From an uncultured Verrucomicrobiota bacterium (lineage in GTDB: Bacteria; Verrucomicrobiota; Verrucomicrobiia; Opitutales; Opitutaceae): a stretch of DNA of 64,000 bases. The stretch's first letter is position 1; each line of letters begins with the position of its first letter. Location: the NCBI GenBank assembly GCA_913058185.1, contig CAJXQX010000005.1:1-64000 (forward strand), read 5' to 3'. Below, piece after piece: positions 2,256 through 8,155 of the stretch. The position numbers and the translations under genes were made by a program. Under the pieces are notes generated by a model, which searched no databases, was not told the DNA's origin, and saw only the letters and a list, made by a program, of their open reading frames with translations.

Positions 2256-3950
2256 GTGAAGTTCTTCATCTCAAAAATCCTAACGAGCCTGATAACCACA
2301 GGTCTGGTAACTTCCACGGTTTTCTCTGCCGAAATGACGTGGAAGGCATGGAGTGAGGCCACTCGGGCCGAAGCCGCCGAACGCGCGGTCCCACTTTATA
2401 TCGTCATCGGCGACTCGCTGAGCGAGCTCACAACCTCAATGCGCGAGGACACCTTCGCTAACGACGAAGTAGCCGCGTTTCTGAATGAGAACTTTGTCTG
2501 TGTTTACGCCGATCGTTCCGACGCTCCAGGTATCGCGGCATACGGTCAGCAGTGGCTCGTAGCTGATCAGAAGATTCCGGGATGGCCCCTCAATCTGTGG
2601 TTCACCCCCAACATGGAACCGCTGGAAGCCGCCAGCTACCTTCCTCCCACGGAAGAATGGGGCCGAGAAGGTTTTATGGTCGTCGCCAACCGGGTCGTTG
2701 ATGGCTGGGCCTCCAATCGCGAAGGGGGCGAACGCAGCGCCCAGCGTCGCACCGAACTCATTGCCGACTACTTGCCTTTCGCCGCCGAGCCGATTGGCGA
2801 CATGGCCGCCGCGCTACAGACCGCCGCCGAAGATTGGTTGGCTCTGCTCAATCCTGAGACCGGCTTGTTCGGCGATTCCCCTCACCGTGCCGAACCAGAG
2901 TTACTTCGGTTTCTGATCGGACAAGGCGGCGAAGCCCGCGCCGCTGCTCTCAAGGCGTTGCGTATCCGGGTTGCCTCCTCTCTGCGTGATCCGATCGACG
3001 GGGGGTTCTATCGGGCCACTTCCGATACCAACGGCGGCATCCCGGTTTTCCAGAAACGCCTCACTGACCAGGCCCGTATCGCCCTTGCCTTTCTCGATGC
3101 AGCCGCCGTTTCTGATGACCCCATCTTTGCCGCCGGCGCCCACAGCGCGCTGGACTACGCGATCAATCGACTGAGCCCCGGCGACGGCACATTTTGGGTG
3201 GGCGAAGACGCGACGGACCCCAACTCTACTCGAAACCAAACCTGGATTTGGGATGCGCTTGCTGAACTCACGGGTGACGAATTCGCCAATCGTCTCGCCG
3301 CTAAATCCGCGGGAAACGTCGATGCCGAAGAGGATCTGGAGAGACATCACAGCGGTCGGAATATTTTGCGCGCTGACCCCACCGAACACACGAGCCGAAA
3401 AGACTTCGAACTGCGGACCAAAGTGCTCACTACCCGTCTCGAGCTCGGGAATCCTCGGATCGAACGCACCGCCACTGCCGGCGCGCATGGCTTGATGCTT
3501 CACGCCCTCAACCGAGCCACCGTGGAGTTGAACGATTTGAACTATGGAGGTTATGCGGTGGCCGTGCGCTCCGCCATCCGACGTGACTTTGATCTCGCCG
3601 CGGTAGAACTCACTCGGGTCGCCCATGCCGATGTCCCTGCCCTCCCCGATGACTACTTGCTGATCGCCATGGGCATGAACGATCCAACTCTCGTGCAACA
3701 GGCGGACGATCTTTTCTATGACGATAAATTCGGACTCTACTACGCGACGGCAGGCGAAGTCGCCGGAGTGCGTCCCCAGATGTGGTCGGCCGCTCCCGGC
3801 GAGTTGCCCTCGCCCGCCGTATGGCGGCTGCTGATCGGTAATCCACCCGAATTGCTGGCCGACGAGATCACCCTCGCGTTCGACAATCCCGACGCCCCAC
3901 CTCCCGGAGACGTATTGCTGGCTCTGCAGAAGCATGATCGTTCTAAGTAG
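2256..3950 (+). CDS. Secreted DUF255 (YyaL/SPATA20-like) protein lacking the CxxC
   Basis: 564 residues from a GTG start, with a signal peptide ending near FSAE. Residues 40-120 fit the thioredoxin-like DUF255 domain (REDTFANDEVAAFLNENFV, then YADRSDAPGIAAYG). The remainder looks like the alpha/alpha-toroid half of YyaL proteins. The cytoplasmic family normally carries a CHWCH motif; here the matching stretch is IGDSLSELTTSM, so both cysteines are gone. With the signal peptide and a length below the usual 650-700 residues, this points to a periplasmic variant without redox chemistry. The substrate is unknown. It stands alone, and the gap to the next gene contains inverted repeats. Confidence 0.75.
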   Translation: MKFFISKILTSLITTGLVTSTVFSAEMTWKAWSEATRAEAAERAVPLYIVIGDSLSELTTSMREDTFANDEVAAFLNENFVCVYADRSDAPGIAAYGQQWLVADQKIPGWPLNLWFTPNMEPLEAASYLPPTEEWGREGFMVVANRVVDGWASNREGGERSAQRRTELIADYLPFAAEPIGDMAAALQTAAEDWLALLNPETGLFGDSPHRAEPELLRFLIGQGGEARAAALKALRIRVASSLRDPIDGGFYRATSDTNGGIPVFQKRLTDQARIALAFLDAAAVSDDPIFAAGAHSALDYAINRLSPGDGTFWVGEDATDPNSTRNQTWIWDALAELTGDEFANRLAAKSAGNVDAEEDLERHHSGRNILRADPTEHTSRKDFELRTKVLTTRLELGNPRIERTATAGAHGLMLHALNRATVELNDLNYGGYAVAVRSAIRRDFDLAAVELTRVAHADVPALPDDYLLIAMGMNDPTLVQQADDLFYDDKFGLYYATAGEVAGVRPQMWSAAPGELPSPAVWRLLIGNPPELLADEITLAFDNPDAPPPGDVLLALQKHDRSK

Positions 3951-4071: not shown

Positions 4072-4105
4072 GGGGATGGGACGTCAGATTGGCACCTTCA
4101 CACTC

Positions 4106-6514
4106 ATGCAGCTATCGCCCTCGTCCCTCTCGGCCACTTTCTGTCAGTCGTGCCAAACCCGTAAATTGCTCGGAGCTGTGATCGTAGGTATTTTCGGCTC
4201 CTTCGGCTGGGCGCAGGCTCAACCGGCTCCTGAGCCGACGACAAAGGTCCAAAATTGGCAGGCGAATCCCGGACCATGGGGCAACCTTCGCGTCCGCCAA
4301 ATCCAACTCGCTCCGCCGCCAGAGGCCCTGGATCAAATTGAATTCCTCGACACTCGGATTTGGAGTTTCGGCGAATTGTCTTGGGATGAGATCTACGCGT
4401 TTTTGCGGACCACCGGCCTGACCGACACTCAGTATGCGGAACTCACGGCCCCTGATCGGAGCCGTTTCGGCAGGAAATGGAAATCCAATGCGATTGAGAC
4501 CACCCCTGAGCTCTTGTTGTCCTTGTCGCCTAGAAGTCGGCTGGCGATCTACAATCGACTAGCCATCTATCGTGGCAATCCAACGCACACCCTACCATGG
4601 GTCATCTCAAAATCGGTAAAAATTGACGCCGCTCAATTCAGCCCGCCGCTTCGCGCTGCTCTGGATAAATTAACCTACGAACGCGACGGTCGGAAATGCC
4701 TCACTGATGCAAACCTACTCGAGACGTTTGCGGCCGATGACGCCGAAGTCAGGCGATTGAAACGCTTTCTGATCACCACCCGTTCACTCATAGTTGAACT
4801 CACGCGGGCGAGCTTGAGCCAACGCGATGAAGTCCTTCGCTATTGGTCCCGCAATCAAACTAAATCCATTGCCGATTTGCTCCAGATGCTCGCCGATTCG
4901 CCGGACCTCGACGGTCTCGATATCGCGCACCTTCTGCCACGGATGCCCCAAGAGTTGATCAATCAATATCCCGACGATGAAGTCTTGCGCATTTCCAACT
5001 GTTTCTGGACCGCGATGAACTTCTTCAACCCGCGACCCGACCCGCAGTTCATGGCCTATCCCGGAGAAAAAGAGAACGCCAGTGATCGGACGATGCGGGT
5101 GCTCGAACGCGACTACGAAGTCGTCGCACCGCCCTACCAATTCGGCGATGTGCTCGGGTTGCACGCGTCGACCGAGATCCACGCCGAGCCGCGCCTCATT
5201 CACGCGGCGTCCTACATCGCGGACGACATTGTCATCAGTAAAAATGGCATCGGAGATTTCGTCCCCATCGTGCTGATGAAACTCGACGATGTGATGGACC
5301 TGTATGCGTGGCCTTCCGAAATCGAAATCCGCGGATATCGCCAAAAATCTCCTGCCTTCGCGCCGGTCCTGCTCCCTCCGCCAACCCCACCCTTTCACCC
5401 TCGCGAATCGACCGCCGTTCCCGGCGGGTTTCTCGAGTTCCAAGTCGTTCAATTGACGGCCCCCGACCCCACCATCGAATCCTATCTCGATACGTTCAGC
5501 ACCCGACAATGGTGGATCGGCGAGGATTCGCGCGGCGCATTTATCGGCCGCATTTTGGGATTAGAAATCAGCGCGCGGGCACGGGATGCCCTTTTCGCTG
5601 CCGAACACTGGCGGCCGGCGAAAAATCAAAACGGATTCTTCGTGACCCCACCGCCGGAAGCTTTGGGGCAACTCAAAGTCGAGGAACGGAGCCGACTCTA
5701 CCGAGAATTAGCCCGTTGGACCGACAACAAATCTGAACTCTGGCCATTGTTCTTTCCGGTGGATTCAGACTGGGATAGATTTACCCGAGCGGGAATTCCG
5801 GCGGCGTTTGTGCAACGCGTTCGCGAGCTCTGTTATACGTTCGGCGACGGCTACGGGTTGAGTGACTTCTCGGTTCTCGCCCACGAATTTCCGGACCGAG
5901 CTATGCTTCGACGGTTCCTGAAACTACAATCTACCATCTCAACCGTGTTGCCGCGCCTCAAAATGACGGCGGCGAAGTCCATTTCCGAAACCTTGGCCCA
6001 CTGGACGAGTGACCATCAAAACCCCTTCGCTCAACCCCTATTGGAAGCCCTATTGGAGTCCGAGACGGAAGAGGACGTTGAGTTGATCAGCATCATGCCC
6101 GGAACGGCCCGCCGTCTTTCAATCAACATCGAGCCAGAGGAGGTCTCCTACGACATCCAGAAAGTGAGCTTCCTCATCTCCGCCAACCTCTCCTCGCCGT
6201 CGCACAAACTGGTAAAAGCCGATGAATTAAGGAGCTGGCTCGGCGCCAATTTCAAACGCGTATCCCCTCCGTATCGTTACGGCGACATTTTGGCATTCAA
6301 TCATCCTAAGGATCCGATCATCAACTACGCCTGTGCATTCATCGGCGCCGATGTAATCTTCGCTCGCGACCCGGTGGGACTCGGCCTCTGGCGATTCATG
6401 CGCGTGAAAGAGATTCTGGGCCGCAACCCCCATTTTGACGGAGGCTCACTGGAAGGTCTGCGCTATAATCCGGTCCCGGCCTCAATCATTGGCTCCGCAC
6501 AAGAAGACAGCTGA
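4106..6514 (+). CDS. Secreted protein with two NlpC/P60-like modules, the second degenerate
   Basis: 802 residues with a signal peptide (hydrophobic GAVIVGIFGSFGW, cleavage near AQAQ). An ATG at 4076 would add ten residues but spoils the signal peptide. The mature protein is a tandem duplication. Each half has a helical part (DTR..W; PEL/PEA..R.AIYNRL/SRLYREL) and ends in a small beta part: PPYQFGDVLGL...HAASYIADDIVISKNG in copy 1, PPYRYGDILAF...NYACAFIGADVIFARD in copy 2. The GD...H.a.Yi.dd pattern, with NCFWTAMNFF upstream in copy 1, resembles the Cys and His blocks of NlpC/P60 peptidases. Copy 2 has neither. A cell-wall hydrolase-like role is an inference; the family is not firmly recognised. 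Confidence 0.6.
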   Translation: MQLSPSSLSATFCQSCQTRKLLGAVIVGIFGSFGWAQAQPAPEPTTKVQNWQANPGPWGNLRVRQIQLAPPPEALDQIEFLDTRIWSFGELSWDEIYAFLRTTGLTDTQYAELTAPDRSRFGRKWKSNAIETTPELLLSLSPRSRLAIYNRLAIYRGNPTHTLPWVISKSVKIDAAQFSPPLRAALDKLTYERDGRKCLTDANLLETFAADDAEVRRLKRFLITTRSLIVELTRASLSQRDEVLRYWSRNQTKSIADLLQMLADSPDLDGLDIAHLLPRMPQELINQYPDDEVLRISNCFWTAMNFFNPRPDPQFMAYPGEKENASDRTMRVLERDYEVVAPPYQFGDVLGLHASTEIHAEPRLIHAASYIADDIVISKNGIGDFVPIVLMKLDDVMDLYAWPSEIEIRGYRQKSPAFAPVLLPPPTPPFHPRESTAVPGGFLEFQVVQLTAPDPTIESYLDTFSTRQWWIGEDSRGAFIGRILGLEISARARDALFAAEHWRPAKNQNGFFVTPPPEALGQLKVEERSRLYRELARWTDNKSELWPLFFPVDSDWDRFTRAGIPAAFVQRVRELCYTFGDGYGLSDFSVLAHEFPDRAMLRRFLKLQSTISTVLPRLKMTAAKSISETLAHWTSDHQNPFAQPLLEALLESETEEDVELISIMPGTARRLSINIEPEEVSYDIQKVSFLISANLSSPSHKLVKADELRSWLGANFKRVSPPYRYGDILAFNHPKDPIINYACAFIGADVIFARDPVGLGLWRFMRVKEILGRNPHFDGGSLEGLRYNPVPASIIGSAQEDS

Positions 6515-6574: not shown

Positions 6575-8155
6575 ATGGACGAGACCAATCTTATACCCGA
6601 TCGCATCGCGGCGACGCTTCGGCAGTTTCCGCCATTCTCGATGCTGCCACCCGACTCCATCGCGGATTTGGCGCAAAGTGCCCATGTCCGGGTGTTGGTC
6701 GCCGGGGAGCAAGTTTGGCATCAGGGCGATCCTCCCGGCGAAGACCTGGATGTCCTCGTGCGAGGACGAATCGAATACCACATCACCAGCGACGAGCAAA
6801 CCGAGATGGTGGCGGTGCGCGACGAGGGGGATTTGTTGGGGCTTACCCCGCTACTGCGAAGTCAACCCGCCCGCACCACCGCTAAAGTCGTCGCCGGCGA
6901 GTTGCCCCGCGAGTCTCCAGTTGAACAAATCATGGCGAGCCCCGTCATCACGGTATCGGCACTATCATCCGCCACGGCGGCCATTTTATTGATGCTCCGT
7001 GAACGGATCGGACAAGTTTGTGTCACCCAGGACGGCACGACGGCTACACCAGCCTTAGATGTTTTTACCCACAAGGACTTGTTGGCCCAGAGTGGCCACC
7101 ACCCCGCCGGGTTACTGCGGGAATTTCGACACGCCCGCACCGTCGCTCGACTGCGCGAGCTCTGTGACGAGGTGGAAGAAATCACCGGCAGCTATTTGGA
7201 TGCGAGCGTCTCGGCTATCTTCCTCGGTCAAATTTGTGCGGAACTCTACGACGAGTTGATTCAAAGACTACTCGAACTCACCACCACCGAAATGAACGCC
7301 GCCGGCGCCCCCCTCCCGTCGGTTTCGTGGGCCTGGCTCTCGGTCGGTAGTGACGGACGTCGGGAGCAGACGCTCCGCACTGATATGGACAACGCGTTGG
7401 TTTTCGGTGCGGCCGCCACGGCTGAAGAGGATGAAAAGAATCGCAAAACATTCCTGCAATTCACCCACGCAGTCGTGGCAAAAATGGTAGAGTGTGGGTT
7501 TGCCCGCTGCCAAGGCGGCGTGATGGCGTCGAATCCCCGGTGGTGTCGCACCGATCGGGAGTGGCTTGAAGAAATCAAAGTGATCAGCACCAGCACGGAG
7601 CCTGACCCACTCTTTCGAGGAATCGTGCTCTACGACATGCGATTCGTATCCGGAGATCCCGCTATGGTTTGGCCGGTGCGTCAGGCGATCATTGATTCGG
7701 TCCGATCAAATTCGTGGCTGCAACGACGCTTAGCCGAGCTCGTAATTGAAACCCCGCCGCCGCTAAACTTCTGGGGCAAATTCGTGGTCGAAAGCCGAGG
7801 TGACCATGTTGGTGAATTTGACCTCAAGGGCCGCGCCATCGCTCCGCTGCGCGATGCCGGACGAATCCTAACCCTTAAACACAATCAACTGCGGCGCTAC
7901 TCCACCGGCGGACGCTGGGAGGATATTCAGCGCAATGTGCCCGCCCTCGAAGAGATGGCCAAAGTAGCGCGGGAGGCCTATGACGTGCTGCTGACCCTGA
8001 GACTTCAAACCGCCATTGCTCGGCAGAATTCCGGGCGGTTCGTCGATCCTTCCAAACTATCAAAACTCGAGAAGGCGCGACTCGCACACGCCTTCGATGT
8101 GGTGCGGATGGTTCAGACCCACGTGCGCCTCGCGTTCAGTTTGGAGTCCCGGTGA
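6575..8155 (+). CDS. cNMP-binding/CBS/DUF294 nucleotidyltransferase-like protein
   Basis: 526 residues, soluble. Residues 15-105 form a cyclic-nucleotide-binding-like beta-roll (VAGEQVWHQGDPPGEDL). A CBS-type segment follows at about 115-170 (VEQIMASPVITVS). The DUF294 nucleotidyltransferase core at about 257 reads GSDGRREQTLRTDMDNAL, the GlnD-like GS...R...TDxD metal site. A C-terminal DUF294_C helical domain (about 340-500) ends with KLEKARLAHAF. Proteins of this design are thought to be signalling enzymes and often neighbour DUF4212/SSS acetate-type symporters and a DnaQ-like exonuclease. Here the exonuclease gene starts within the stop (TGATG), so the two are translationally coupled. The substrate is unknown. 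Confidence 0.88.
   Translation: MDETNLIPDRIAATLRQFPPFSMLPPDSIADLAQSAHVRVLVAGEQVWHQGDPPGEDLDVLVRGRIEYHITSDEQTEMVAVRDEGDLLGLTPLLRSQPARTTAKVVAGELPRESPVEQIMASPVITVSALSSATAAILLMLRERIGQVCVTQDGTTATPALDVFTHKDLLAQSGHHPAGLLREFRHARTVARLRELCDEVEEITGSYLDASVSAIFLGQICAELYDELIQRLLELTTTEMNAAGAPLPSVSWAWLSVGSDGRREQTLRTDMDNALVFGAAATAEEDEKNRKTFLQFTHAVVAKMVECGFARCQGGVMASNPRWCRTDREWLEEIKVISTSTEPDPLFRGIVLYDMRFVSGDPAMVWPVRQAIIDSVRSNSWLQRRLAELVIETPPPLNFWGKFVVESRGDHVGEFDLKGRAIAPLRDAGRILTLKHNQLRRYSTGGRWEDIQRNVPALEEMAKVAREAYDVLLTLRLQTAIARQNSGRFVDPSKLSKLEKARLAHAFDVVRMVQTHVRLAFSLESR

Follow-up and report, generated by a model that had tools for sequence, protein, structure and literature searches.

In the window, by which we mean the whole stretch of 64,000 nucleotides analysed here from an uncultured Opitutaceae bacterium (Verrucomicrobiota), one intact gene encodes a chain of two related halves, and we consider it rather probable that the product is an amide hydrolase of NlpC/P60-like type, secreted and probably directed at peptidoglycan, which is joined to a pseudoenzyme half with a binding or regulatory role. 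The sequence-based part of this reading consists of the tandem homology of the halves, the conservation of a catalytic triad in the family of the first half (copy 1), the loss of this triad in the second half (copy 2), the co-retention of the two copies in related genomes and, in four of these genomes, a dead half that is more conserved than the live one; what we infer is the export, the peptidoglycan substrate and that copy 2 has a part in binding or regulation.

Results

The gene and its two halves

The gene occupies positions 4106..6514 of the forward strand and codes for 802 amino acids in two halves; it lies in an uninterrupted open reading frame (4076-6514), and a second in-frame ATG is found upstream of 4106, at 4076. 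When the halves (4106-5419 and 5420-6511) were compared by BLASTP, 337 residues could be aligned with 23% identity at an E-value of 1e-16, thus an internal duplication is indicated well beyond chance, and the tandem of related halves proposed in an earlier, sequence-only reading of this DNA was borne out. The same reading had matched the halves motif by motif: the halves do align, but some of the motifs are looser than they had been written, since the 'DTR' of copy 1 is 'STR' in copy 2. Its statement that the family has little annotation was also correct, as no Pfam or NCBIfam model names the family of copy 1. Scanning the whole protein and each half against Pfam and NCBIfam gave no usable match; the sole one, of HycI to copy 2 (E 0.25), was dismissed as noise.

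The features of the gene are collected in Table 1. Judging from the hydrophobic stretch at its N-terminus, the 802-residue protein would be exported. By a crude 15-residue score, a hydrophobic stretch upstream of the domain was detected in 60 of 67 domain entries of the family, the misses including internal second halves, compared with 78 of 230 neighbours.

Table 1. Features of the tandem gene and of the region just upstream of it, in window positions.
Feature	Position	Strand	Basis
Perfect 12-bp inverted repeat with 6-nt loop	4042..4071		just upstream of the gene
Probable Sec signal peptide	4106..4219	+	translation; possible cleavage after AQA (residue 38), inferred
Copy 1, live NlpC/P60-like domain with N-terminal helical lobe	4268..5350	+	family profile match; model m5e78213d6dfb
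Predicted catalytic Cys299	5000..5002	+	Cys in 63/63 live copies; within 'NCFWTAMNF'
GD motif of copy 1, Gly347-Asp348	5144..5149	+	Asp 63/63, Gly 62/63
Predicted catalytic His366	5201..5203	+	His in 63/63; within 'IHAASYIADD'
Predicted third catalytic residue, Asn380 of 'KNG'	5243..5245	+	63/63, constantly at His +14
Arg412, expected partner of the GD Asp	5339..5341	+	63/63; pairing according to the available part of PMC10318531
Proline-rich linker joining the halves	5351..5425	+	translation; gap between profile matches
Copy 2, dead NlpC/P60-like domain	5426..6484	+	profile match; model m2349fbbc23af
Ser688, best-supported residue in the Cys column of copy 2	6167..6169	+	hmmalign to the family profile
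Retained GD of copy 2, Gly726-Asp727	6281..6286	+	GD in 6/6 Cys-less copies
Tyr741 in the His column of copy 2	6326..6328	+	profile alignment
Asp755 in the third-residue column of copy 2	6368..6370	+	RDP in place of KNG
Retained Arg786 of copy 2	6461..6463	+	invariant in alignment A2 (3 dead copies)

Predicted active site of copy 1

For the family of copy 1, 69 near-complete domains were aligned, which remained from 72 unique domain matches after three partial ones had been set aside and which represent the subset of genome-search matches with a locus. The Cys is present in 63 of them (the live copies) and absent from six, and these six have lost the His and the Asn too. All 63 Cys-bearing members have the Cys, the Asp of the GD motif, the His, the Asn and the Arg, and in each of them the His-to-Asn spacing is 14 residues. 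The Cys and the His of copy 1, which had been suggested to be placed like the catalytic pair of NlpC/P60 enzymes, are Cys299 and His366. According to the available part of PMC10318531, the NlpC/P60 cluster is marked by a GD on strand 1, the Asp of which contacts an Arg on strand 5; by sequence, both the Asp and the Arg of this mark are found in 63/63 members. In the low-confidence model of copy 1 a helix (245-250) starts at the Cys (model residue 245), the His (residue 312) is on the strand 310-318, and the Asn stands two residues beyond the strand 321-324.

The order Cys, GD, His, polar residue is common to copy 1 and to NlpC/P60 proper (PF00877, MEROPS C40), and the fold predicted by the low-confidence models may be shared as well. 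In contrast to NlpC/P60 proper, the third residue of the copy 1 family is an Asn at +14 and not at +12, the position of the third column in the NlpC alignment, and an extra N-terminal lobe of about 220 residues is present.

Fold and class assignment

For copy 1 a model with a pLDDT of 63.4 was obtained from four sequences, and for copy 2 one with a pLDDT of 61.6; the two models are not independent, because they go back to the same four source sequences. In Foldseek the list for copy 1 was led by BACUNI_02947, NlpC/P60 lipoproteins and cell-wall hydrolases, and copy 2 gave mostly NlpC/P60 structures, none of the matches of either model being at E<0.001. In the VIA comparison the best Z of copy 1 was 8.5, with the phage endolysin Lys2972 (rmsd 3.6 over 122 residues), followed by MepS, a T. 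thermophilus NlpC/P60 protein, Spr, CwlO and others, and 88 of 905 chains had a Z of at least 5; for copy 2 the best Z was 6.6 (rmsd 4.3 over 109 residues), with 14 of 890 chains at a Z of at least 5, and by the tool's own caution a Z below 8 can reflect a common arrangement. The model of copy 2 retrieved the same group as copy 1 at lower Z, the non-catalytic RipD included. Most of the VIA rows listed are NlpC/P60 or other peptidoglycan hydrolases, and the structure matches are located mainly on the C-terminal part of the models (about residues 221-365), those of copy 1 in the VIA comparison being within residues 201-370. Folds unrelated to NlpC/P60, which would have spoken against the sequence-only reading, did not emerge from the prediction of either half: at pLDDT values of 62-63 and with weak matches, both retrieve mostly NlpC/P60 structures, and by these models a papain-like NlpC/P60 fold of both halves is weakly supported.

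When the 63 Cys-bearing members were compared as a profile with 25 NlpC domains (of 27 extracted, from 30 loci), the similarity was weak, with a score of 25.4, but 60 column shuffles reached no more than 18.4. The comparison with CHAP (four of six domains) reached 24.3, nearly as high as NlpC, as a weak similarity (E 0.006) over the GD and His region. Pfam NLPC_P60 (PF00877, C40) matched eight of the 63 members weakly, with a best E-value of 0.011, and from their E-values these matches are taken to be under the 23-bit cut-off; the CHAP (PF05257) and AmiA-like (PF07313) models were absent from the Pfam matches of the 63 members. In our reading the family of copy 1 is a separate family inside the NlpC/P60-like cluster and not PF00877 proper.

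Membership in the AmiA-like (DUF1460) family was considered as well, on account of its high-ranking structures (with both models, those of BACUNI_02947 were retrieved near the top) and of the likeness of 'DCWTFFE' to 'DCHWTSLNFF'. It was rejected, as the profile comparison (17 of 22 domains) was unsupportive, its E-value of 0.025 being obtained on a stretch outside the catalytic region; additionally, the triad given for this family in the accessible portion of PMC10318531 is Cys-His-His, unlike the Cys-His-Asn found here. In the genome of the window there were no matches to the Pfam NLPC_P60, CHAP and AmiA-like models, and among 76 genomes of the class such matches occurred in 25, 6 and 22, respectively.

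Chance matches were all that sequence searches of the PDB returned, whether the query was the single protein or a profile of 16 or 63 rows, and NCBIfam gave only scattered single-member matches on the 63 members.

Occurrence of the family

The family of copy 1 was detected in 56 of 286 genomes of the class; relatives were present in 13 of 57 close-relative genomes and, by profile search, in 32 of 387 genomes drawn from the phylum. Most members are single-domain proteins. One is found in a Verrucomicrobiota record that carries an Akkermansia label, possibly a wrong one. At another locus (G108:C413) tandem family copies stand on one contig, one of them separately without Cys, His and Asn, and at G275:C1:2922863-2923911 a member is split into two adjacent matches which jointly cover the profile, possibly a broken gene.

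Searching the plasmid and phage collections for the family gave no match, and four further viral scans yielded no new record. A live member was seen on the viral contig IMGVR_UViG_3300035701_008955 (3767-5062 of locus L053), in opposite orientation to a phage portal gene (phrog_21, E 4e-39) the end of which it just overlaps; it may possibly be a cargo gene. Literature searches over titles and the starts of abstracts found no description of the copy 1 family and no paper combining Opitutaceae, NlpC and peptidoglycan.

Loss of the triad in copy 2

Copy 2 has lost the Cys, the His and the Asn, and it retains the GD and the Arg. The absence of a Cys, remarked earlier, could be verified, none being present in the matching helix region. 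The further remark that an Asn replaces the His was off by one position: Asn740 is outside the His column, which holds Tyr741, and in the four close dead copies this column has Tyr in three and Phe in one. Beyond the Cys/His pair the third residue of the triad is also changed, from Asn380 in copy 1 to Asp755 in copy 2. The placement of Ser688 is uncertain, since the 69-row MAFFT alignment puts no Ser in the Cys column.

The region which replaces KNG has conserved residues of its own, namely R-D-P, G-L-G, W-R-F-M and R-N-P-H-F in 3/3 aligned dead copies; in copy 2 the pattern at the former active site is R-D-P-x-G-L-G-x-W followed by R-N-P-H-F. Taken with the models, the triad, which is complete in 63/63 live copies and lost in copy 2, supports the earlier proposal of an active and a pseudo-enzyme module in one secreted, unannotated chain.

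The live-dead pair in related genomes

A related dead copy is present in five genomes, that of the window, G001, G003, G117 and, in divergent form, G020, and in all five a live copy is beside it, fused in three and adjacent in two. In the search of 200 genomes of the taxonomic family, four genomes scored at least 406 bits and the next match 114; the dead copy of G020 (84 bits) was assigned by the tree. The maximum-likelihood tree unites the five dead copies in one clade (98/94) and their five live partners in another (97/91). In a tree with 21 further family rows, from which one partial match was dropped and of which two were repeats of known dead copies, no row without a dead copy was placed among the live partners. 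The sixth Cys-less copy, in G108, is of separate origin according to the tree. The pair is rare, as it occurs in 5 of 200 genomes of the taxonomic family.

The arrangement of the pair varies. In G001 and G003 the dead and the live copy are two genes in this order, about 10 nt apart in G001 (counted on the sequence) and overlapping by 4 nt in G003 (6867-8087 and 8084-9286 of L146); in G117 and G020 they are fused as dead-live, and in the window as live-dead.

Among the window, G001, G003 and G117 the dead copy is more conserved than the live one in 6/6 comparisons, with 43.6-48.5% identity for the dead and 33.6-43.1% for the live copy (dead/live per pair of genomes: 44.0/37.2, 44.8/33.6, 43.6/36.0, 48.5/43.1, 43.9/38.4 and 43.9/36.5). 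In the comparisons which involve G020, on the other hand, the live copy is the better conserved of the two in 4/4, and the branch of this very divergent dead copy is 2.24. The reading frame of the dead copy is open in all five genomes, and the GC3 of the halves in the window (0.651 and 0.654, the latter in copy 2) is close to the 0.660-0.674 of the neighbours. That copy 2 has lost the triad and is nevertheless well kept, with the pair co-retained in relatives, suggests a separate function for the dead half.

The locus and its neighbours

The window and G003 share the flanks of the pair: upstream a gene of cluster c2, which we take to be FG-GAP-like, and a DUF255 gene, and downstream a DUF294-type gene. 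From these shared flanks it appears that the order of the copies has been reversed at what is apparently one locus. Both the reversal and the fusion would be explained if a dead-live pair had been duplicated and the outer copies lost.

No conserved neighbourhood linking the family to wall metabolism was detected when 21 stretches were compared and 20 neighbour proteins were scanned with Pfam, by means of a greedy gene caller which misses or shadows some genes, e.g. the dead gene of G001. A link to a peptide transporter was considered and discarded, as the ABC and glycosyltransferase genes differ among loci and the single-link clusters had mixed unrelated ABC proteins.

The inverted repeat upstream of the gene folds better than 200/200 shuffles (z -4.0), and with as many as 3 mismatches allowed it was found only once in the genome; in G001 and G003 the region upstream of the pair showed no inverted repeat of at least 10 nt. 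It might be an operator or a leader hairpin, its link to the gene being putative.

The adjoining DUF255 (Thioredox_DsbH) gene of the window (2256-3950) is without CxxC, and in G001 and G003 its homologues which adjoin the pair have no CxxC in the matching stretch; a DUF255 paralogue elsewhere in the genome of the window (L195) has CKDC. By its sequence the gene at 2256-3950 could possibly encode a second catalytically dead protein at the locus. At the beginning of the window, positions 13-46 presumably resemble a sequencing transposase adaptor, and the first residues of the open reading frame 18-2144 are for this reason probably an artefact.

Discussion

Parts of this arrangement have counterparts in known systems. 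Ruminococcus flavefaciens RflaF_05439 and its strain-17 homologue have, according to the available part of PMC3573020, tandem NlpC/P60 modules in one secreted chain, and the first module of the strain-17 homologue carries Ser for the catalytic Cys, which is a likeness to copy 2. In that tandem, as far as the same source goes, the His is kept and a dockerin is on the chain, whereas in the protein described here one half has lost the Cys, the His and the Asn, both halves possess a large N-terminal lobe, and the two can also be encoded by separate genes. RipD of Mycobacterium tuberculosis is described in the accessible parts of PMC6628586 and PMC12067865 as a non-catalytic NlpC/P60 protein which has lost the triad and is a reported peptidoglycan binder; unlike copy 2, it appears there as a gene by itself that is linked to no particular live partner. 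RipD had no sequence match to the window protein or the family profiles in the PDB sequence searches, and its match is structural only. By analogy, and to the extent that these sources cover it, a non-catalytic NlpC/P60 protein and a Cys-to-Ser tandem repeat may be regarded as already known precedents.

In the reading that we favour, one gene would provide a secreted pair of NlpC/P60-like modules of papain fold. In copy 1 Cys299 would be the nucleophile and His366 the base, with Asn380 orienting the His, and the module would cut an amide bond, most likely in the stem peptides of peptidoglycan. Copy 2 would be a pseudoenzyme derived from one old duplication, in which the scaffold (GD, Arg) was kept and the triad was not; most likely it would bind the wall or the live partner and in this way place or control copy 1. 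More tentatively, and with somewhat more doubt than belief, we propose that the two form an obligate enzyme-pseudoenzyme unit, in which the dead half, by a new conserved site for a ligand or partner, might gate the live half; fusion or overlapping genes would hold the two one-to-one, and the pair would have been fused more than once, with its order reversed at one locus via tandem duplication and loss of the outer copies.

The alternative which survives best, although we regard it as unlikely, is that copy 1 has the NlpC/P60-like fold and a different reaction or target, as an extracellular protein or lipid amidase, a deamidase or a transglutaminase. Lipid amidases and transglutaminases are among the wider superfamily in the available part of PMC10318531, the deamidase TecA and staphopains stand beside NlpC among the structure rows, and neither a wall-binding domain (by Pfam) nor a wall-linked neighbourhood was found; against this, peptidoglycan hydrolases predominate among the top structural matches, and most members of the family count as exported in the crude hydrophobicity test described above.

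It is improbable that the domain is not papain-like and that Cys, His and Asn are conserved for something else, e.g. metal binding. The low confidence of the models and the Pfam matches, which are all weak, would leave room for such a view, but the residue order, the GD/Arg pattern, the profile score above the shuffles and the NlpC-dominated structure lists agree with each other.

That copy 2 is still an enzyme with altered chemistry, using e.g. Ser688 and Asp755, is in our judgement very improbable. In 4/4 close dead copies a Ser occupies one and the same position of a block without gaps and an Asp replaces the Asn, and a Cys-to-Ser NlpC/P60 repeat is known from the tandem in PMC3573020, as far as its available part shows; nevertheless the His is absent, Tyr or Phe being in its column in 4/4, and the placement of the Ser varies with the alignment. 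Least probable of all is a functionless, decaying copy 2, for which the lost triad and the divergence of the G020 copy could be cited, since the frame is open in all five genomes, the GC3 is like that of the neighbours, the dead copy is conserved above the live one in every comparison among four genomes, and the live partner is always present.

If the NlpC/P60-like hydrolase with a pseudoenzyme half is the right reading, an unnamed and widespread NlpC/P60-like family would be added to the repertoire of wall hydrolases of the phylum. Wall hydrolases need control, and a clear evolutionary record is seldom available for inactive relatives that act as their controllers or targeting parts. The pair described here, fused in either order or present as two genes, would be a natural, repeatable system in which the effect of a dead copy on a live one may be studied.
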